64,000 nucleotides of DNA from Bacteroidota bacterium (lineage in GTDB: Bacteria; Bacteroidota; Bacteroidia; B-17B0; Aurantibacillaceae). Numbering within the stretch: position 1 is the stretch's first letter; every line of letters starts with the position of its first letter. A program made the translations under genes and the position numbers. The notes under the pieces were generated by a model, which ran no database searches, was not told the DNA's origin, and saw only the letters and a program-made list of their open reading frames with translations. Below, piece by piece: positions 18,895 through 29,760 of the stretch. Location: the NCBI GenBank assembly GCA_021156365.1, contig JAJNDK010000005.1, positions 248,001 through 312,000 on the forward strand, given 5' to 3'.

Positions 18895-21800
18895 CTATTC
18901 TTCTACTACTATTTTATGCACCGAACGGATGCCTTTGGATTCGATTTCCAGCCAATAAACACCTGCCGGTTGATCGATATTCATATGCACTCCGGAAGAG
19001 GCAGCTTCCAGTGATCCCGAATACATTGCTCTGCCCAAAACGTCCTTTACAGATATGTTATACCTTCCTGCATTCGGAATAGTGATAGTAAAGTTTCCGT
19101 TATTGGGATTTGGATAAATGACAATAGAAGAAATTACAGCGCTGTTTTTAATACTAATCGTGTTGACAAAGAAAACAGCGGATATATTGCTGCATCCGTT
19201 TGTGTCTATGGTTTCCACAGTATAATTCCCGTTTTGCGTAACTACAATGATTGAATCTGTTTCGCCGCTTACAGGCGTTCCTTCCAGGTACCATTGATAA
19301 GAAACAGCCGCAGATGAAAAAAGTGTATCCCACGACTGGCTGATGGATGGAGTATTTGGAGCAAAGGTATTTACTGTAACCGAAGCAGTATCGATACAAC
19401 CATTGAGATCTGTACCGTTCACCGAATAGGTGGTAGTTGTAAGCGGCGTCACATTATTAACAGCCGTTTGCACATTATCACTCCATAAATAATTATCAGC
19501 TCCGCCTGCAGTCAGTGTAACCTGGGTACCTGCACAAACGGTATCTGCACTGGCAGAGGCCGTAACAAGCAGTTGCGGATTAACCACGATCGTTATAGAA
19601 GCTGTTCCCTGACAACTGTTTATGTCGGTACCGGTAACTGTATATGTATTGGTGGTAACCGGCATAAAAGCAACACTATCCGTTACGCTTCCACTCCAGC
19701 TATATAAATCGTTACCACTGCCCGCCAGTACAATGGTTGTTCCTGCACAAACAGTATCCGCACTGGCAATTGCCAGAACAGTTGGCAGCGGATGCACCGT
19801 TACAAATCCGGTTGCTGTTGCAGTACAAGTACTATTGGTGTTGGCTCCGGTAACAGTATATGTGGTACTCGTTGTTAAAGAAGGGATAACAAGCGTGTCC
19901 GAGATAGATCCTGTACTCCACAAGTAGGAATCTGCGCCACTTGCTACAAGCATAGCCGAGTCACCATTACAAATAGATCCTGAAGCGACTGCAACAACAG
20001 GAATTGAATCGCCAACCGTAACCGTTATCGTTTGTGTATTTGTACATCCACCGGCCTCTGCTAAAGTAAGCGTGTAGATGGTAGTGGCAGCCGGGCTTGC
20101 AATTACAGTAGCTGCGGTAGTTGAAGAGAGCCCGGTGGGAGGCGACCAGGTATAAGACGGAGGTCTGAGAAAAGTGATCGTCCAGTTTTGCAAGGAGCCC
20201 ACATCAGACGGGCCATCATCCACCACTATCAACTGCCATGTACCGTTCATCTGTGAATTAGCCAAAAGAGAAAATGGCTGTTCCGGTGAATAGGTATTGG
20301 TGAAGGGTGCAGCACCGAAAGTAATAGGAGTTCCACTCATGGCAAAAACAGTATTTATGTAATTATCCCCGTTGATTCCATTGTGAGTAGAGAGTTCGAT
20401 CCTCGTTCCATCAGGTGCCTGCAGATAAATACTAAGGTCTCCGACAAAGGTGTGATTTATACGAAGCCGGACAGAAACAAGGTTCGCTCCAACTATTCCC
20501 TGCTGACCGGAAACTATTATGGACGAAGTGATCCCGGTCAGGTTGTTATCTGGGATATTTTGCACAGTGTTGTTTGAAAAACCATTGGTCAATGCCCCGG
20601 GATATGAATTAGCGCCCGCAATTATTGTTGCTGAGTTGCCTGAACATACCGTGTAGCCTGGAGTTACCAAGGGAAGTGGGTGTACGTTAGGGCTTATCGT
20701 TCCTGTAGCTGTATTTGAACAACCGGTTGAAGCCACAGTGCCTGTAACAGTATAATTGGAAACAGCAGTGACCGGGTTAATTGTCAGATTAGCTGTAGTT
20801 GCTCCTGTGTTCCATATATACGTGTCAGCACCGCTTGCCGAAATACTTCCGGAAAAGCCCTGGCATACTACAGTGGATGTTGCTGCCACCACAGGTAATG
20901 GATTTACGGGGACTGTAACAGTTGCCGTGTTCTGACAACCATTGCTATCCGTACCGATCACTGTATAAGTAGCAGTACTCAGGGGAGAGAAAGCAGTTCC
21001 ATCGGTTATATTACTTATCCAGGCATAAGAGCTGGCGCCGCTTCCGGTGAGGGTAAGAGCAGAACCCGTGCAAACCATTGGAGGATTCGCATTGGCAACT
21101 ACCACAGGCGGAGATAATACATTAAGCGACAGATCGATCCCGTTATCCGGTCCTGTATACGCAGGATTGCTGCTTACTATGCGTATCCTGTAACCGGTAG
21201 CTGCCGCAACAGAACCGGGGATCACAGCATTAATAGTCCCGGGAGTCGATGAGCTGACCGAGCCGATAACAACAGGAGATGCAAAAGAACCCGTAGAATC
21301 GGAAAGCTCGGCCGTAAAAATATTCCCGGTATTGTAGATACCTGCAATACCATACGGAATACTAAGCGTGTTGCCGCTGAGGCAGGCATTGGTCAATAAG
21401 GTATTGATCGTGCGGCCTCTTTCGATGAGTGTGCCATGCTGAGAGCTCCCTCCGTTCGTTCCGTTAAAATCCAACTTTTTTGTATATGTTAACGTGAGTG
21501 GGTTGTATTGAAAAATGACGCCCAGATTATTTGCTCCACCCATTGTAGTCATTCCATATAAATTCCCATCGGAAGCCATTAACAGAGAGCCTTCGGGATA
21601 CGCGCCGTTGCTTCCAACAAAATCAACCCGTTTGATATAGATCCCCGTACTGAGGTTATAACTGAAAATAACTCCCTTACCCTGTACACCTCCCTCATGG
21701 GTCATTCCGTATAAAGTTCCGTCGGGCCCCTGCACCAATGATTTATAGGGCCATTTACCATTGACCGCTAAACCGAAGTCAAATTTTTTAGTTAAGACCC

Positions 21801-23646
21801 CCGTAACAGGATCGTACTGGAAGAGCACACCCGTTCCGTAAGCTCCGCCATATGCCACACCATACAGCATTCCATCACTTGCTTTCAGGAGACTGCCGGA
21901 TGGGACCGAACCATTGCCGGTGCCATTAAAATCCACCTTTTTCGTGTATACGTCATTTGCGGGGTCATACTGGAAGAGAACACCCATACTGTTCACGCCG
22001 CCACTATAAGTAAGCCCGTAAAACATTCCATTCACTTCTACAAACGAGCCCATGGGCCCGGTTCCCAGGGGTATGTTCACAAGAGGTCTCGTAAAAAATC
22101 CGTTGGTGGCAGGGTCGTAGCGGATAATAGTACCGGTGCCATTGGTATATGTGCTGCGGGAAAGCCCGTACAATTTTCCGTCTGCAGCAGGTAAAAGGGA
22201 ACCCATATACGAGATGCCGTTATCCCGCGTCATAAGATCATACTTTCTTGTAAATATGCTACTCCCGGGATCGTATTGAAAAATGGCAGCGCTGCCAAAC
22301 GAGCCTTTTTCTTCCATGCCGTATAAAGTGCCATCAGATGCCTCTGCCAGTGTGCCCAGTACAGAGGTCTCGGATGTATGGCTCAGACTTATTTTCAGCT
22401 CATACCCTTCCGAAACAGGATCGTATTCATACAAGCTGCCGGTATTATTCCTTCCACCTGCCATTGTAAGGCCATACATTTTTCCATTACCGGCCTGCAT
22501 TATGGATGAAGGGAATCTTCCATCAAACGTAGGAGTCGTAATGATCGTGATATGGAATAAGTGTTTATATGCTAATGTAAAAGTGGATAGATCGAACTGG
22601 AAAATGGCGCCGTAAGTGGTGGATCCTCCGGGACCCAAAGCGGTTCCATATATCTTTCCATCGTTTGCCTCGATCAGGGAAGCCATCGGGTTAGCATATC
22701 CGGCAAAGCCCGATCGGACAATGCAGGAACCGCCAACAGGATCGTATTCATAAAGGACACCGCTATTGGCGCTATAGTTGGTTGTAGTTCCATAGATCTT
22801 CCCGTTAGATGCCTGCAGCAGAGTGCCTACAGGACCACTACTACTAATTGTAAGGTCAAAATCAACCTTTTTGATACAAACGCCGGTCGCAACATTATAT
22901 TGATAGAGCACTCCTCCTCCGTTTCCAGGAGTTCCGCCACTATATGTAACACCATAGAGATATCCGTCACTGGCCTGCATCAAACCTCCGAACGGATTCG
23001 CACCATCTGCATAAACTGAAAAATCATGTTTTTTTATACAGGTATTCGCTACGGGATCGTACTGATAAAGAGTACCCTGGTTTCCTACTCCGCCAGCAGT
23101 GGCAACTCCGTAAATCATTCCGTCGCTGGCCTGCATCAGGAGTCCGAAGGGATTTTTGCCTGTGGCAAGACTGTCGAAGTCCACTTGTTTAGTCAACGTA
23201 TTGGTCAGATAGTCGTACCGGAACAATATGCCCATGTTATTGATCCCCCCGGCATACGTTATTCCATATATTTTTCCGTCAGTTGCTTTCATCAGTCCTC
23301 CGGTTGGTCCTTCGCCTGTTTGCAATCCGTCGAAGTCGATCAGTTTTTCATAAATCCCGGTTGTCATGTTGTAGCTGAACAAAACACCTTTATTGTTTGC
23401 TCCGCCGCTGGTAACTCCATACAGCAGGCCGTTCGGGGCTTCCAGCAGTTTAAGGTGGTGAGCGCCGATACCTTCGTTCCTGCGAAAGTGGTGCTGTATT
23501 GCATGATTATTTCCGGAGTTATCCATTCTGAAAATAGTTCCGCCATGGTACTGGCCTCCCTGAGAGGTCATCCCCCAGATCTCTGTTTGTGTATTCCCAT
23601 TAAGATGGATAAGCAAGACAAAAAGGAAAACAAGTAGTTTTTTCAT
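18895..23646 (-). CDS. Giant secreted protein with GloVer tandem repeats, P-domain and type A T9SS sorting domain
   Basis: 1583-aa surface or secreted protein with signal peptide (about 1-19, LIHLNGNTQ). Residues 50-740 are about fourteen tandem repeats of the GloVer type, each around 50 residues: LYGVTSGGANNKGVLFSY, GSLLKASDGMLYGVAYGG and relatives, a beta-propeller-like array. Ig-like segments follow (about 745-1010), then a proprotein-convertase P-domain (about 1024-1160: VRLRINHTFVGDLSIYLQAP, NGTWQLIVVDDG), more Ig-like repeats, and a C-terminal type A T9SS domain (about 1509-1583: IVIYPNPNNGNFTI, AGVYWLEI, HKIVVEE). Type A CTDs lead to export and often attachment to A-LPS. Substrate or partner unknown. 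Followed by the terminator at 18828-18892. Confidence 0.92.
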   Translation of the reverse strand: MKKLLVFLFVLLIHLNGNTQTEIWGMTSQGGQYHGGTIFRMDNSGNNHAIQHHFRRNEGIGAHHLKLLEAPNGLLYGVTSGGANNKGVLFSYNMTTGIYEKLIDFDGLQTGEGPTGGLMKATDGKIYGITYAGGINNMGILFRYDYLTNTLTKQVDFDSLATGKNPFGLLMQASDGMIYGVATAGGVGNQGTLYQYDPVANTCIKKHDFSVYADGANPFGGLMQASDGYLYGVTYSGGTPGNGGGVLYQYNVATGVCIKKVDFDLTISSSGPVGTLLQASNGKIYGTTTNYSANSGVLYEYDPVGGSCIVRSGFAGYANPMASLIEANDGKIYGTALGPGGSTTYGAIFQFDLSTFTLAYKHLFHITIITTPTFDGRFPSSIMQAGNGKMYGLTMAGGRNNTGSLYEYDPVSEGYELKISLSHTSETSVLGTLAEASDGTLYGMEEKGSFGSAAIFQYDPGSSIFTRKYDLMTRDNGISYMGSLLPAADGKLYGLSRSTYTNGTGTIIRYDPATNGFFTRPLVNIPLGTGPMGSFVEVNGMFYGLTYSGGVNSMGVLFQYDPANDVYTKKVDFNGTGNGSVPSGSLLKASDGMLYGVAYGGAYGTGVLFQYDPVTGVLTKKFDFGLAVNGKWPYKSLVQGPDGTLYGMTHEGGVQGKGVIFSYNLSTGIYIKRVDFVGSNGAYPEGSLLMASDGNLYGMTTMGGANNLGVIFQYNPLTLTYTKKLDFNGTNGGSSQHGTLIERGRTINTLLTNACLSGNTLSIPYGIAGIYNTGNIFTAELSDSTGSFASPVVIGSVSSSTPGTINAVIPGSVAAATGYRIRIVSSNPAYTGPDNGIDLSLNVLSPPVVVANANPPMVCTGSALTLTGSGASSYAWISNITDGTAFSPLSTATYTVIGTDSNGCQNTATVTVPVNPLPVVAATSTVVCQGFSGSISASGADTYIWNTGATTANLTINPVTAVSNYTVTGTVASTGCSNTATGTISPNVHPLPLVTPGYTVCSGNSATIIAGANSYPGALTNGFSNNTVQNIPDNNLTGITSSIIVSGQQGIVGANLVSVRLRINHTFVGDLSIYLQAPDGTRIELSTHNGINGDNYINTVFAMSGTPITFGAAPFTNTYSPEQPFSLLANSQMNGTWQLIVVDDGPSDVGSLQNWTITFLRPPSYTWSPPTGLSSTTAATVIASPAATTIYTLTLAEAGGCTNTQTITVTVGDSIPVVAVASGSICNGDSAMLVASGADSYLWSTGSISDTLVIPSLTTSTTYTVTGANTNSTCTATATGFVTVHPLPTVLAIASADTVCAGTTIVLAGSGNDLYSWSGSVTDSVAFMPVTTNTYTVTGTDINSCQGTASITIVVNPQLLVTASASADTVCAGTQVTLTAGGADNYLWSDNVQTAVNNVTPLTTTTYSVNGTDLNGCIDTASVTVNTFAPNTPSISQSWDTLFSSAAVSYQWYLEGTPVSGETDSIIVVTQNGNYTVETIDTNGCSNISAVFFVNTISIKNSAVISSIVIYPNPNNGNFTITIPNAGRYNISVKDVLGRAMYSGSLEAASSGVHMNIDQPAGVYWLEIESKGIRSVHKIVVEE

Positions 23647-23871: not shown

Positions 23872-24756
23872 TTACCCTTTCAGCGCTTCCGCACCTGCCA
23901 CGATCTCGAGGATCTCGGTGGTGATGGCTGCCTGGCGGGCTTTGTTGTAGGAGATCTTCAGATCGCGCAGCATTTCTTTTGCGTTGTCGGTTGCTTTGTG
24001 CATAGCCGTCATACGTGCTCCATGCTCTGCTGCTACCGAATCCAGTAATGCTTTGTACAGCTGTATTTTTAAGGATTTCGGGATCAGGTCGCTTACGATA
24101 TATTCCTTACTTGGCTCGAAAATATATTCAACTGAAGCTGTCGATTTTGATGCAGCCGAAGTGGTAGTGTCCACAGGAAGGAAACGCTCTGCTGTAGTTA
24201 TCTGTACTGCTGCATTGCGGAATTGATTGTAGATCACATCCACACGTCCGAATTGTCCGTTTACAAATGCTTCCATGATCTTCTCAGCAACGGGCGCTGC
24301 ATTTGCAAAACTCATGCTATCGAATAGTTCGCTTGTATTATGCGGAAGATCCGTTCCGTGGATTGCATGCTCTGTCCGGCGGAATGCATCATTCGCTTTT
24401 TTTCCGATCGCCAGTACCGATACTTTTTTTTCTGCGTATTCGTTCCTGATCAGGCTCCAGGCCTTTTTAATAACGTTGGCATTGAATGCTCCGGCCAAAC
24501 CCCTGTTGGAAGAGATCACCACCAATAATACATGGTCTGCAGCGTTTGTGCGTGCATAGGTGTTTTCGGAAGTATCAAGGCTTGCGCTCAGGTTTTGCAG
24601 GATCTCTCTTAATTTATCGGCGTAAGGACGCATCTGAGTGATCGCATCCTGAGCGCGTTTCAGCTTGGCAGCACTCACCATTTTCATGGCGCTTGTGATC
24701 TGCATAGTTGAACCTACCGAGGTGATCCTGTTTCTTACTTCTTTTAAATTTGCCAT
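23872..24756 (-). CDS. atpG: ATP synthase F1 subunit gamma
   Basis: Central rotor shaft of F1, coupling c-ring rotation to catalysis in the alpha/beta hexamer. 294 aa, normal length. Both conserved ends are present: the N-terminal helix (VRNRITSVGSTMQITSAMKMVSAAK, positions 7-31) and the C-terminal helix (MTAMHKATDNAKEML, YNKARQAAITTEILEIVAGA). The middle has SNRGLAGAFNANV. It is the last gene of the minus-strand operon, 106 bp after atpA, a spacing filled by a fold-back repeat at 24781-24860, and is followed by a terminator. Confidence 0.97.
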   Translation of the reverse strand: MANLKEVRNRITSVGSTMQITSAMKMVSAAKLKRAQDAITQMRPYADKLREILQNLSASLDTSENTYARTNAADHVLLVVISSNRGLAGAFNANVIKKAWSLIRNEYAEKKVSVLAIGKKANDAFRRTEHAIHGTDLPHNTSELFDSMSFANAAPVAEKIMEAFVNGQFGRVDVIYNQFRNAAVQITTAERFLPVDTTTSAASKSTASVEYIFEPSKEYIVSDLIPKSLKIQLYKALLDSVAAEHGARMTAMHKATDNAKEMLRDLKISYNKARQAAITTEILEIVAGAEALKG

Positions 24757-24862: not shown

Positions 24863-26443
24863 TTATGCTGCGAATTTTTTAGAAACTTCTTTCGCTACTG
24901 ACTCCAGGGTATTGGTGATCTCATCCGTATACTGACCGGCTTTCAATTGATCCAATACACCTTTGTGGCTTCTTTCCAGTACTTCTAAGAAATCTCTTTC
25001 GAATTCTTTTACTTTATTCACCGGTACTTCGCGCAATAAATTACGGGTACCGCAATAGATAATAGCAATTTGTTGCTCTACACGAAGCGGGGAGAATTGT
25101 CCCTGTTTCAGGATCTCCACGTTACGCGCACCTTTGTCGAGCACCGATTTGGTAGTTGCATCGAGGTCGGAACCGAATTTCGCGAAAGCTTCCAGCTCAC
25201 GGTACTGTGCCTGATCCAGCTTCAATGTACCTGCCACTTTTTTCATGGATTTGATCTGTGCATTACCCCCTACACGCGATACAGAGATACCTACGTTGAT
25301 CGCAGGACGAACACCGGCGTTGAATAAATTCGACTCGAGGAATATCTGACCATCGGTAATGGAAATTACGTTGGTAGGGATGTACGCAGAAACGTCACCT
25401 GCCTGTGTTTCGATAATTGGTAAAGCCGTTAAGGATCCACCACCTTTTACGATACTGCGGATAGAATCCGGAAGATCGTTCATACCCTGTGCAATTGCAT
25501 CGGATGCATTGATCTTTGCAGCACGCTCTAACAAACGACTATGCAGATAAAATACATCACCAGGATATGCCTCACGTCCCGGAGGGCGACGTAATAACAG
25601 GGAAACCTCACGATAAGCAACTGCCTGTTTCGACAAATCATCAAACACGATCAAAGCCGGACGACCGGTATCGCGGAAGAACTCACCGATAGCAGCACCT
25701 GCAAACGGAGCGTAGAACTGAAGCGGAGCAGGATCAGAAGCATTAGCCGCTACGATGATCGTATAAGCCATTGCACCTGCATCTTCCAATACACGCTGAA
25801 CGTTGGCAACGGTCGAACCTTTTTGTCCGATCGCTACATATATACAAAATACAGGTTTTCCTGCATCAAAAAATTCTTTCTGGTTGATGATGGCATCGAT
25901 ACAAACAGCTGTTTTTCCTGTCTGACGGTCACCGATCACAAGCTCCCGCTGTCCACGCCCGATAGGGATCATCGCATCGATGGATTTGATACCTGTCTGC
26001 AGAGGCTCTGTAACCGGCTGACGGTAGATAACACCCGGTGCTTTACGCTCCAGGGGCATCTCATACGTAGTACCTGCGATAGGACCTTTACCGTCGATCG
26101 GTAAACCCAATGTATCAACTACACGGCCTAACATTCCTTCACCTACTTTCAGGGAAGCAATTTTTCCTGTGCGTTTACAGGTAGAACCTTCGCTGATCCC
26201 CTCGCTGCTACCTAAAAGTACAGCACCCACGTTGTCTTCTTCAAGGTTCATTACGATACCTCGTAATCCGGTGGTGAACTCGATCAACTCACCTGACTGA
26301 ACTTTGGAAAGTCCGTAGATACGAGCGATACCATCACCTACCTGTAGTACGGTACCAACTTCTTCCAATTCCGCTTCCGATTTGAAGCCTGATAATTGCT
26401 GACGTAGAATTGCAGATACTTCTGCCGGTTTTATTTCTGCCAT
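24863..26443 (-). CDS. atpA: ATP synthase F1 subunit alpha
   Basis: Regulatory nucleotide-binding subunit of the F1 hexamer, 526 aa. Walker A is [10 protein letters not shown] (about 169-178); the family signature [14 protein letters not shown] (about 365-380) carries the arginine that reaches into the neighbouring beta catalytic site. The N-terminal [10 protein letters not shown] and the C-terminal helical part are intact. It starts 11 bp after the stop of an embedded lipoprotein gene rather than directly after atpH, which is the usual neighbour. Confidence 0.98.
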
Positions 26444-26454
26444 TTTGTTTTAAT

Positions 26455-27108
26455 TTACATGTTTTTGAATTGAGCGATCAGCACACCGTTGGTGATGGTC
26501 TTTTTGAGCGCTCCACTGCTGTTATATAATTTACAGGAAAAATTTGCTTTGATCTTCACGTAATGATTTCCCCCTTCGTCCACTATTTTTTTGTCCACGA
26601 TATTGAACCCGGTACCGGTTTGCGGACCGGCGCTGGTCAGCTGATCGTTTTCGATATACATATTGATCCCGATCCCGTTAAAAGCACCTGCCGAATAAGG
26701 AATATTTGTTTTAGGAAAAAATGCATCGAAGGTTGCATTGTCCACCGTCGTTCCGTTCGGGTAGCTGAGTGTTCCTTTCGAGGCTGTAAAAACAAAATGG
26801 CCGGTATTGGTGTCGGTCAGATACATAGACCAGATCTGTGTAGTGTTGGTGCTTCCTGTAAAAGTTTGTGTATTATAACTGTTGCTGATCGTGCCGGTCC
26901 CGTCCACAAATGTATAGTTTGTTCCATCCATAGTATAACTTACCTGAATCGCTGAGTTAACCGTAGCGCTACCACCCGTAGAACCACCGGTTGTGGTAGC
27001 CGATGTGGTCGTAGAAGCGGTACTGGTACTTTTGTTTTCCTTTTTACATGCAAAAGACAACATCACTATAAGTGCTGCACTTGAACATATGTAGGTAAGT
27101 TTTTTCAC
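26455..27108 (-). CDS. Lipoprotein of unknown function embedded in the atp operon
   Basis: 217-aa predicted lipoprotein: lipobox SFAC with Cys21, followed by a Ser/Thr/Gly linker (about 27-52). The rest is strand-rich: YTMDGTNYTFVDGTG, IWSMYLTDTNTGHFVFTASKG, NGIGINMYIENDQ and HYVKIKANFSCKLYN, a pattern seen in small Bacteroidota surface lipoproteins of unknown role. It lies between atpH and atpA with gaps of only 7 and 11 bp, on the same strand and without its own visible promoter or terminator, so it must be co-transcribed with the ATP synthase genes. A structural or assembly role in ATP synthase is not supported by sequence: the protein would be outside the cytoplasm while delta and alpha are inside. 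A late insertion into the operon is the simplest reading. Confidence 0.88.
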   Translation of the reverse strand: MKKLTYICSSAALIVMLSFACKKENKSTSTASTTTSATTTGGSTGGSATVNSAIQVSYTMDGTNYTFVDGTGTISNSYNTQTFTGSTNTTQIWSMYLTDTNTGHFVFTASKGTLSYPNGTTVDNATFDAFFPKTNIPYSAGAFNGIGINMYIENDQLTSAGPQTGTGFNIVDKKIVDEGGNHYVKIKANFSCKLYNSSGALKKTITNGVLIAQFKNM

Positions 27109-27115
27109 TTCCGGT

Positions 27116-27664
27116 TTAAAATTCTTTTACAAAAGGATTCTCGGAAAAATTCTTGCGCAGATCATTCAACTTCCTTGCAACACTTGCATCGATCTGTTTG
27201 TCGCCAACCGTAAGAACAAATCCCCCGATAAGGTCTTTATCTGTTTTTTCGATCAGTTCTACTTCCCCGTTTGTGGTTGCTTTTACCAGCTCTAATACTT
27301 TTGATTTGGTAGCAGCGTCAATTCCGTTAGCAGAGGTGATCACTGCGGTCAGGATATTTTTATAGGCTTTGTATTGTCCATCAAATGCTTTGGCGATGTC
27401 GTCGATATATCCTTCACGACGTTTGTCGGCAATGATATTGATGAAAGAAAAAGTAAGATCGCTTATTTTTCCCTTGAAGATCTCTGCGAGGATCGCCTTT
27501 TTCTTGTCGGTCTTTACAACCGGACTTTCCAGTAAATTCACAAAATCCGGATTGGAATCGCAAAGACCTTTGATCATTTGCATGTCTTTATGAATGGCTT
27601 CCAACTGTCCTTTTTCGACTGCCAGTCCAATAAGTGATTTCGCGTATCTGCTTGCTGCTCCCAT
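27116..27664 (-). CDS. atpH: ATP synthase F1 subunit delta
   Basis: Peripheral-stalk subunit joining the b dimer to the top of F1. 182 aa, usual length. Typical features are the N-terminal SRYAKSLIGLAVEKGQLEAI helix pair and the C-terminal DLIGGFVLTVGDKQIDASV segment, the family's conserved G-G-x-x-x-x-x-D-x-x-x-D block. It starts 7 bp after atpF and ends 7 bp before the embedded lipoprotein gene. Confidence 0.95.
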   Translation of the reverse strand: MGAASRYAKSLIGLAVEKGQLEAIHKDMQMIKGLCDSNPDFVNLLESPVVKTDKKKAILAEIFKGKISDLTFSFINIIADKRREGYIDDIAKAFDGQYKAYKNILTAVITSANGIDAATKSKVLELVKATTNGEVELIEKTDKDLIGGFVLTVGDKQIDASVARKLNDLRKNFSENPFVKEF

Positions 27665-27671
27665 TTTCTGA

Positions 27672-28166
27672 TTAGTTAAGCGTAACTTCTTTCATTAAAT
27701 TGTTCACCAGCGTTTTTTGCTTTTCATCGCTTGAAAGGGTTTCTTTCAGGATCTTCTCAGCAATATCAATGGAAAGTGTAGCTACCTGGTTTTTCAATTC
27801 GGTGATAGCAGCCAGTTTCTCGTTGTTGATTGTTTCGCGGGCCTGGGCTACCAAACGGTCTGCCTCGGTTTTTGCCTTTGTTTTTGCTTCGCTGATGATG
27901 GCGTCTTTCATGTCGCGCGCTTCTTTCATCATCGTTTCTCTTTCTGCACGTGCTTCTGCAAGGATACGCTCGTTACCAGCCTGCAGCTCTTTCATTTCTT
28001 CACGAGCTTTCTCTGCAGCTTTGATAGCGCCGTCGATAGAGTCTTCACGGGCTTTGATCATTTTAAGGATCGGTTTCCAGGCAAACTTTTTCAGTAACAG
28101 GAAAATGATCGCGAATGTTACCAACATCCAGAATACAAGACCTAATGCGGGGGTTACTAATTCCAT
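27672..28166 (-). CDS. atpF: ATP synthase F0 subunit b
   Basis: Peripheral-stalk subunit: one N-terminal membrane helix (about 8-28, LGLVFWMLVTFAIIFLLLKKF) followed by a long charged coiled coil rich in Ala, Glu and Lys (EKAREEMKELQAGNERILAEARAERE). 164 aa. It begins about 80 bp after atpE; that gap contains a strong hairpin followed by a U-run (28211-28237), so its expression may be lower than that of atpE. Confidence 0.95.
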   Translation of the reverse strand: MELVTPALGLVFWMLVTFAIIFLLLKKFAWKPILKMIKAREDSIDGAIKAAEKAREEMKELQAGNERILAEARAERETMMKEARDMKDAIISEAKTKAKTEADRLVAQARETINNEKLAAITELKNQVATLSIDIAEKILKETLSSDEKQKTLVNNLMKEVTLN

Positions 28167-28205: not shown

Positions 28206-28237
28206 AGTAAAAAGCGGTAACCAACCGTTACCGCTTT
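28206..28237 (-). terminator. Strong intrinsic-terminator-like hairpin between atpE and atpF
   Basis: Read on the minus strand: an 11-bp perfect stem AAAGCGGTAAC / GTTACCGCTTT (28211-28237) with loop GGTTG, running into TTTTTAC. It stands 8 bp after the atpE stop and 45 bp before atpF. As a full terminator it would cut the operon, so partial read-through or an RNA-end-stabilising role for atpE mRNA is more likely. Confidence 0.8.
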
Positions 28238-28244
28238 CTTACAA

Positions 28245-28484
28245 TTAACCTAATACTACCAATAGCGCAACAACCATCGCGAAGAAAGCAGCACCCTCAA
28301 CAAGGGCAGCAGCTAAGATCATGTTTCCACGGATGTCGTTAACAGCTTCAGGCTGACGAGCGATTGATTCTAAAGCAGAACCACCGATACGGCCAATACC
28401 TAAACCTGCAGCTAATGCAGCAATACCTGCTCCAACTGCAGCAACACCTGCAGCCATTGGAACTTCTAATAACATTGTTGTCAT
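28245..28484 (-). CDS. atpE: ATP synthase F0 subunit c
   Basis: Proteolipid of the rotor ring. The ATG at 28484 gives 79 aa; an in-frame TTG at 28511 would add nine charged residues and is less likely. Two hydrophobic hairpin helices are joined by the conserved polar loop ARQPE. The ion-binding carboxylate is Glu in ALVEGAAFFAMV; the residue after it is Gly, and the extra Gln/Thr ligands of sodium c-rings are not seen, so protons are the likely ion. The helix 1 glycine motif is present (GAGIAALAAGLGIG). The gene is framed by two hairpins, an AT-rich one before it (28515-28535) and a terminator-like one after it. Confidence 0.96.
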   Translation of the reverse strand: MTTMLLEVPMAAGVAAVGAGIAALAAGLGIGRIGGSALESIARQPEAVNDIRGNMILAAALVEGAAFFAMVVALLVVLG

Positions 28485-28514
28485 TTTTGTTTTATTTAAA
28501 TTGTTTAACAATAC

Positions 28515-28557: not shown

Positions 28558-29760
28558 TTATACGATCACATGTGTTGGCTCATGACCCTTCTCCACATGA
28601 TGATCATGCTCGTGATGTCCTTCTTCCACCGCTGCACCGATATAAATAGCCGATAATAATGTGAAAACGTATGCCTGTAAAAATGCTACCAGTAATTCGA
28701 GGAAGCCCATAAATACAGTGAACAATACCGATACGATCGATACACCGTAACCTGCGCCTGTGCTTTTCTCTCCGAAAATGAAGATCAAGCTAAAGAATGC
28801 CAGTGCGATAATGTGGCCTGCAGTAATGTTCGCAAACAAACGGATCATCAATACAAAAGGACGAAGCACTATACCAAGCAACTCGATAGGCGTAAGAATG
28901 ATCAACACCGGAATAGGTACACCCGGCATAGCAAAAATATGTCTCCAGTAATGTCCGTTTCCGCTGATCAGGGTAATGATCAGGGTGATGGCTGCCAGTA
29001 CAAGACAAACGGAAATATTACCGGTAAGATTGGATCCGAATGGAAAGATAGGGATAAGCCCCATCAGGTTATTGATAAAAATGAAGAAGAATACCGTTAA
29101 CAGGTACGGCATATAGCGCATGTATTTTTTTTCTCCGATAGAAGTTTTGGCTACATCATCACGGATAAAAAGGATCAATGGTTCCATGAACGACTGCAAG
29201 CCTTTCGGCGCCATTCCTTCACGGCGTTTGTATGCTCTTGCCACACTGAGGAACATCCATAACATCAACAGTGCGCTGACGATAATGGTAAGTGCATTTT
29301 TAGTGATGGAAAAATCTTTCACCTTAGCCGTTGCGTCTTTATCTACATTTCCGAAATCATCCACGATCTCGATATGCTCATGACGCAACATGTATTTATA
29401 ATGTGTGCCCTGGTAAATATCTTCCGAATGTTCTACATTAGAAGAAGAGAAAATTTCAAGTCCCTTGTCGGTCCATAAAATAACCGGAAGTGGAATGTGA
29501 ACACCATGTCCGTGATCACCCCACAAATGCCACTGATGCGAGTCGCCAATGTGCTCAATGATCATTTCGCCTGCATTGAATTTTCCGCTTTCCTCGTGTG
29601 TATCAGCTTTTGCTGTATCAGCAACCACTGCTTCAGCCTGCATAACTGCCTCTTCCACCGGTTCGTAGGCGAAGCTTTTGGCAGGGAACAAGGCGAAAAC
29701 GACTAAAATTAGGGAAAAACAGAAGTTTTTTACGGAGAATATGCTGATTTTACTACTCAT
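28558..29760 (-). CDS. atpB: ATP synthase F0 subunit a
   Basis: Stator channel subunit, 400 aa, longer than the Escherichia coli protein (271 aa) because of an N-terminal export-type segment (about 1-31, ending AKSFAYEP) and a periplasmic His/Asp/Glu-rich region to about 160, as is usual in Bacteroidota. Membrane helices start near 165. The essential arginine is Arg307 in MIRLFANITAGH. The C-terminus carries a tail of about 20 residues with seven His (EEGHHEHDHHVEKGHEP). First gene of the operon, preceded by a TACCTTTG promoter motif 37 bp upstream. No atpI or bactofilin-like gene precedes it here. Confidence 0.96.
   Translation of the reverse strand: MSSKISIFSVKNFCFSLILVVFALFPAKSFAYEPVEEAVMQAEAVVADTAKADTHEESGKFNAGEMIIEHIGDSHQWHLWGDHGHGVHIPLPVILWTDKGLEIFSSSNVEHSEDIYQGTHYKYMLRHEHIEIVDDFGNVDKDATAKVKDFSITKNALTIIVSALLMLWMFLSVARAYKRREGMAPKGLQSFMEPLILFIRDDVAKTSIGEKKYMRYMPYLLTVFFFIFINNLMGLIPIFPFGSNLTGNISVCLVLAAITLIITLISGNGHYWRHIFAMPGVPIPVLIILTPIELLGIVLRPFVLMIRLFANITAGHIIALAFFSLIFIFGEKSTGAGYGVSIVSVLFTVFMGFLELLVAFLQAYVFTLLSAIYIGAAVEEGHHEHDHHVEKGHEPTHVIV

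Follow-up and report, generated by a model that had tools for sequence, protein, structure and literature searches.

A lipoprotein gene within the ATP synthase operon

The window (the whole stretch of 64,000 nucleotides that was analysed) carries, entirely on the minus strand, a block of genes in the order atpB, atpE, atpF, atpH, lipoprotein gene, atpA, atpG. The lipoprotein ORF (26455-27108) begins with a GTG codon and encodes 217 aa; it is flanked by atpH and atpA, at distances of 7 bp and 11 bp, respectively. Thus the ORF, its orientation and its short gaps are as the initial annotation had described them. The features of the locus, listed in the order of the genes and with the basis of each assignment, are the following:

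28558-29760, minus strand: atpB (a subunit); order same in relatives
28245-28484, minus strand: atpE (c subunit); order same in relatives, ATG start chosen
27672-28166, minus strand: atpF (b subunit); sequence and position, order same in relatives
27116-27664, minus strand: atpH (delta subunit); PF00213 match
27109-27115, minus strand: 7-bp gap from the atpH stop to the lipoprotein start; sequence
26455-27108, minus strand: lipoprotein gene, 217 aa, GTG start; ORF, homologs in relatives
27049-27108, minus strand: predicted signal peptide, residues 1-20, ahead of lipobox Cys21; lipobox pattern and sequence
26971-27048, minus strand: Cys21 and Ser/Thr/Gly-rich linker, residues 21-46; sequence, variable in alignment
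26458-26970, minus strand: predicted folded domain, residues 47-217, modelled as all beta apart from one short helix; alignment and model
26444-26454, minus strand: 11-bp gap from the lipoprotein stop to the atpA start; sequence
24863-26443, minus strand: atpA (alpha subunit); ORF, conserved in relatives
23872-24756, minus strand: atpG (gamma subunit); name from sequence and position

For atpE, the ATG start was taken; the ORF list has a TTG start at 28511. The source genome, G000 (23 contigs, 5.31 Mb in all), contains one OSCP/delta gene, and the lipoprotein gene is single-copy in a search with the single sequence. Its GC3 (0.472) is close to the window background (0.482 ± 0.054). Next downstream of atpG, the minus strand (18895-23646) encodes an exported repeat protein of 1583 aa with what appears, by eye, to be a T9SS-like C-terminal tail.

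The initial annotation had seen no promoter belonging to the lipoprotein gene itself, and none emerged here. The Bacteroidetes-type promoter pattern occurs once in the window, on the opposite strand. Sigma-70-like sites remain at the level of shuffled sequences (13 versus 14.6 ± 3.9), and the idea of a separate promoter was dropped because the signals do not exceed chance. Rfam models gave no match above their gathering scores between 23000 and 31000. We infer, with fair reason, that the lipoprotein gene is co-transcribed with the atp genes. The region contains 11 terminator-like hairpins, where shuffled sequences have 6.7 ± 2.8; one of 13 pairs, at 28209-28239 on the minus strand between atpE and atpF, could be an attenuator or an RNA processing site setting the level of the c subunit.

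The product is a predicted lipoprotein with a domain modelled as all beta

The GTG codon is probably the correct start, since initiation at the next in-frame ATG (codon 16) would abolish the signal peptide. Reading from GTG, the product has a positively charged N-terminus, a hydrophobic stretch and a lipobox cysteine at position 21, as predicted for a bacterial lipoprotein processed by signal peptidase II (SPII). A PS51257-like lipobox pattern matches all nine members of the family found at the atpH-atpA junction, the window protein among them, and a crude signal rule is likewise positive for 9 of 9; the SPII signal proposed in the initial annotation is supported. Codon position 3 is the most variable one in all six homolog pairs compared. 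The homologs at the same place, this codon pattern and a confident domain model identify the ORF as a real gene rather than a chance reading frame and confirm the presence of a lipoprotein gene inside the atp operon. Seven junction members have 13 invariant columns in common, including Cys21 and, in an F-x-C stretch, Cys192. The latter, near the C-terminal end, is kept in at least 90% of 32 members and, by eye, mostly lacks a partner cysteine in the mature protein.

A model of the domain (about 170 residues), built from a 32-member alignment that includes class-wide homologs, reached a mean pLDDT of 96.0 and a pTM of 0.89; the predicted fold is all beta with one short helix. The polypeptide would thus be anchored to lipid at its N-terminus and carry, beyond a flexible Ser/Thr linker, a small domain resembling a beta barrel. 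In C. canimorsus, the lipoprotein export signal (LES) is given as K-(D/E)2 in its minimal form and as C-X-K-(D/E)2-X in its best form (available part of PMC5080379). The anchor of the window protein, C-K-K-E-N, has one acidic residue and does not conform to K-(D/E)2, a motif that belongs to C. canimorsus and perhaps not to this lineage; the C-K-K-D-D of homologs L212 and L222 does conform. Since the window anchor misses the motif while some homologs have it, a periplasm-facing location appears as likely as a surface-exposed one.

Homologs are patchily distributed

A search with the single sequence matched 8 of 100 genomes, the source genome included. One of the matches (G016, locus L008) lies in the signal peptide region and was discarded, as its profile match extends only over positions 1-51. 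In the profile search of the family to which the source genome belongs (87 genomes), clear homologs (E < 1e-19) were found in eight genomes (G000, G002, G020, G027, G032, G048, G056 and G123). All eight are located between atpH and atpA, and none elsewhere. As many as 61 of the 87 genomes match the profile at E ≤ 0.001, the best match after the eight being at 2.3e-10; among those listed, the weaker matches cover mostly the signal peptide and linker, or the C-terminal end of proteins of 370-390 aa that are perhaps distant relatives.

Extending the search to 395 genomes of the class, with up to 7 candidates scored per genome, gave matches at E ≤ 1e-8 in 25: G000, G032, G300 and 22 others. G300, a member of family f21, supplies a ninth junction homolog (L209), again between atpH and atpA; four of 36 f21 genomes have a homolog, and that of G300 alone adjoins atp genes. 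The 24 loci of the 22 class genomes (L210-L233) show no atp gene within about 1.5 kb on either side, and there is none in the flanking DNA examined for L150 and L234. A named collection contributed six loci, all from uncultured Bacteroidota assemblies; five are family members in the operon and the sixth (L150) lies outside it.

The gene order had been called unusual on first inspection, and it is so even among relatives: only 8 of the 75 atpH-atpA junctions measured in the family hold an insert, the other 67 having no gap over 180 bp. Six loci (L085, L088, L092, L202, L205 and L207) end before atpH and give no junction; G043, with a broken atpA, was left out; both atpA contigs of G024 were kept; and six genomes (G001, G019, G031, G039, G050 and G103) gave no atpA match. 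The initial annotation had proposed co-transcription with essential genes. A special link to the ATP synthase is not supported: the gene is missing from most of the relatives measured, near ones having an empty junction or another occupant, and homologs occur elsewhere in the class with no atp genes nearby. As grounds against its reading, the annotation had named relatives with the same order and a known function; half of this was found, in that some do share the order, but no function came to light.

The atpH-atpA junction receives different genes

Five junctions were surveyed in 206 atp loci (81 from the family, 125 from other families) for same-strand ORFs in gaps over 180 bp. One hundred of the class loci, from outside f1, are the first of a longer list, and distant genera are under-sampled; G246 and G300 were left out, the latter because it had been found through the lipoprotein itself. 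An inserted same-strand ORF was present at atpH-atpA in 17 of 199 cases (8/75 in the family and 9/124 in the class), as against 5 of 741 for the other four junctions together: atpB-atpE 0/170, atpE-atpF 1/191, atpF-atpH 1/197 and atpA-atpG 3/183. Gaps over 180 bp that lack any same-strand ORF of at least 50 aa occur at atpH-atpA in L265, L269 and L283, and at atpE-atpF in L051, L080, L081 and L247. The 801-bp gap between atpA and atpG in L118 was rejected as an insert, there being a stop inside atpA.

By the crude rule, 16 of the 17 atpH-atpA inserts are exported, and so are 2 of the 5 inserts elsewhere. The exported occupants comprise the lipoprotein family in eight genomes, an exported family of f29 in L112, L302, L309 and L320 (more distantly in L330), a protein with a T9SS sorting tail (PF18962) in L256, a TPR protein in L311 and a 99-aa protein in L095. 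The seventeenth, in L266, is a PF05635 protein not called exported. L311 contains a second small ORF which the signal rule calls exported, a call that we doubt. At the other junctions were found a PD-(D/E)XK protein (PF13366) at atpF-atpH in L117, PF05635 proteins (23S rRNA IVP type) at atpE-atpF in L246 and at atpA-atpG in L249, and, at atpA-atpG in L057 and L072 (genomes G006 and G041), a pair of related exported proteins (296 and 301 aa; BLAST 1.6e-20). The PF05635 genes thus occur singly in three atp junctions (L246, L249 and L266) and the PD-(D/E)XK gene (L117) in a fourth, a pattern that looks like random insertion.

Per genome, Fisher tests give 1.9e-8 and 1.0e-9, values that are too strong because they treat related genomes as independent. 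Counting by insert family, with PF05635 counted once per junction, leaves seven families at atpH-atpA versus four elsewhere (p 0.002 for 7/11) and, for exported families, six versus one (p 0.0004 for 6/7). All-against-all BLAST of 19 inserts joined only members of the same named family, with one exception (E computed for 19 proteins): L266 matched the G056 lipoprotein (27% over 73 aa, 4.1e-5), a match attributed to chance because L266 is a full PF05635 protein. The new observation is that one junction is recurrently occupied by different gene families, mostly for exported proteins.

Two LIC11966 family lipoprotein genes (NF047958) were found between atpH and the homolog of the window gene, in G020 (L077) and G032 (L048), scoring 42.2 and 39.4 bits against a cut-off of 40. 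In seven g2 genomes (G040, G045, G049, G053, G055, G057 and G104), LIC11966 genes share a contig with atpA, at a distance of about 7-9 kb.

One gain or many

A tree of concatenated AtpA, AtpH, AtpF and AtpG sequences was made by a quick method for 80 rows (74 from the family, G300 and five outgroups); L094, measured as empty, was left out. The presence of the lipoprotein gene agrees poorly with this tree and requires at least seven changes, all of them forced by starred branches. Presence is slightly clustered, the shuffled mean being 8.7 changes and 13-19 of 500 shuffles giving values as low. Rows of f21 and of the outgroup are placed within f1, and some genera are split, so that the tree describes the atp genes and cannot be taken with certainty as that of the species. 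Empty junctions occur in near relatives of carriers: G016 for G027, G029 for G123, G007 for G020, and G041, G046 and G060 beside G048 and G056.

In the tree of the lipoproteins themselves, the junction members G032, G056 and G123 form one group and the remaining ones another, with no single clade in the best tree. Distances between junction lipoproteins do not correlate with atp distances (Spearman 0.13, Mantel p 0.30, 36 pairs). G048 and G056 are the nearest pair of carriers (atp path 0.045), yet their lipoproteins belong to different groups and are 3.59 apart, about twice the distance between those of G000 and G020, which are of different genera (1.83).

These data bear on a rather unlikely alternative, in which the gene was inserted once, before the family radiated, and then underwent many independent losses and very fast divergence with no transfer. 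That all eight clear family homologs occupy one place fits such an origin and would not be expected of a purely random passenger; G000 and G002, of one genus, are both carriers and pair in the lipoprotein tree (86/82). In AU tests, moreover, neither a single clade of all nine junction lipoproteins (p 0.35) nor a grouping of G048 with G056 (p 0.148) or of the four members from genus g6 (p 0.129) was rejected. The protein data are therefore compatible with a single old origin and rapid divergence, and alone they cannot settle between transfer and old divergence. Against it, a single gain would entail 24 losses on the atp tree (midpoint root) where seven changes suffice, lipoprotein and atp distances are uncorrelated, and other families hold other genes in the junction.

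We infer that the patchy occurrence reflects transfer. Comparison of the atpH and atpA flanks detected no exchange tract between carriers, and allelic exchange through these flanks was discarded as a route, since in these regions carriers from different genera resemble one another no more closely than their empty sisters do. In the carriers examined, inserts start 0-21 bp past the atpH stop. In G020, compared with the empty G041, the insert directly follows the stop codon of atpH, and the leader of atpA survives behind it; in G048 the leader is less clear.

A probable passenger in a proposed permissive slot

The product is probably a passenger lipoprotein of the envelope, its gene lodged in a permissive, repeatedly occupied slot between the a-c-b-delta and alpha-gamma modules. 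Under this interpretation, the atpH-atpA joint of atpBEFH-AG would be a permissive slot at the module boundary, where genes, mostly for exported proteins, would arrive, remain for a while and then be replaced or lost. Transcription of the lipoprotein gene, as an additional cistron, would start from the atp promoter; the product of the gene would be exported by the Sec/SPII route, sorted to the outer membrane, and would act independently of the ATP synthase, perhaps as a binding protein. Since the slot is only occasionally occupied in relatives, and then by various genes most of which encode exported proteins, it looks like a spot where genes park again and again, and not like the seat of an added enzyme component.

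Selection for expression could add to the passenger interpretation: envelope proteins needed in proportion to growth might profit from the atp transcript, so that arrivals are kept. We regard this as doubtful. The bias toward export is evident, both per genome (16 of 17 atpH-atpA inserts, versus 34 of 99 background genes) and per family (6 of 7, binomial p 0.008). However, the background is small, consisting of 37 window genes, 20 of them called exported, and six further loci whose 62 genes, those for lipoproteins and atp subunits among them, include 14 so called; because the crude rule calls so many background genes exported, part of the bias may itself be background. Exported genes may also simply be those that turn over fastest in the phylum.

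A function of the lipoprotein tied to the ATP synthase or the proton circuit (in assembly, regulation or contact from the envelope side), suggested by the shared strand, the short gaps and the recurrence at this junction, is very improbable, given that 67 of 75 measured family junctions have no gap above 180 bp, that L210-L233, L150 and L234 show no atp gene in the DNA examined, and that an outer-membrane lipoprotein and F1Fo would not meet. For an F1Fo subunit or a dedicated assembly factor one would look for a gene kept with the atp genes across relatives, and this one is not; a role in the ATP synthase is unlikely.

Because their subunits must be balanced, operons for essential complexes are taken as closed; in this one a single junction is open, its four neighbours being nearly closed. 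The atpH-atpA inserts amount to a natural experiment on an essential operon tolerating extra cistrons, and they warn against deducing a part in ATP synthesis from the position of a gene alongside those of the enzyme. More tentatively, the junction may serve across Bacteroidia as a revolving-door expression slot, in which different exported or envelope families are installed, swapped and kept for steady expression coupled to atp, at no cost to subunit balance; it is also a possible safe expression site in Bacteroidota.

Comparison with known systems

The fold points to generic barrels and does not name a family. Foldseek searches with the domain model found no solved structure at E ≤ 0.001, and the best row of VIA-align was LpqH (4zjm_E; Z 6.9, rmsd 4.2 over 110 residues), followed among small barrels by BcnB (Z 5.4) and YceI (Z 4.1), all below the informative Z of 8. 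The barrel arrangement of the model resembles that of LpqH, BcnA/BcnB and YceI, which are small lipid-anchored or periplasmic beta barrels, but with Z under 8 and no Foldseek match no family claim is made. Pfam gave the window protein at best 11.4 bits (gathering 25.3) and, over 7 and over 32 members, no family with E below 0.0078; NCBIfam and PDB sequence searches with the window protein returned nothing convincing. The nearest named family is NF052634 (Riean_0653 family protein), which the window protein resembles in size and N-terminal layout. This family is matched by 13 of 32 homologs at E ≤ 0.1, best by L230 (2.1e-07, profile positions 1-170 of 176), and not by the window protein, either full length or as its mature part; membership was rejected, the best homolog scoring 32 bits against the curated cut-off of 57. 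The LIC11966 surface protein (NF047958) shares the atpH-atpA junction, its gene lying directly before the window-family gene in G020 and G032, but has no sequence similarity to the window protein in the all-against-all BLAST.

Among open-licence papers, no title or abstract describes inserts at atpH-atpA, nor does the available text of PMC10197588 mention any. The structure of the operon has been described by Niu et al. 2017 (PMC5709465), in whose main text, as available, the word "inserted" occurs 0 times and inserts at the junction are not described, the units there being predicted transcription units. According to the accessible part of that report, epsilon-beta stands apart from gamma-alpha-delta-b-c-a in most Bacteroidetes, a-c-b-delta is in some of them split from gamma-alpha, and the units beta-epsilon, a-c-b-delta and gamma-alpha appear near the Bacteroides and Prevotella branches. 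The break between the latter two units falls at the same delta-alpha boundary as the insert slot. The joint between delta and alpha is thus already a weak one in the phylum, and a site that permits insertion is accordingly the most economical explanation.
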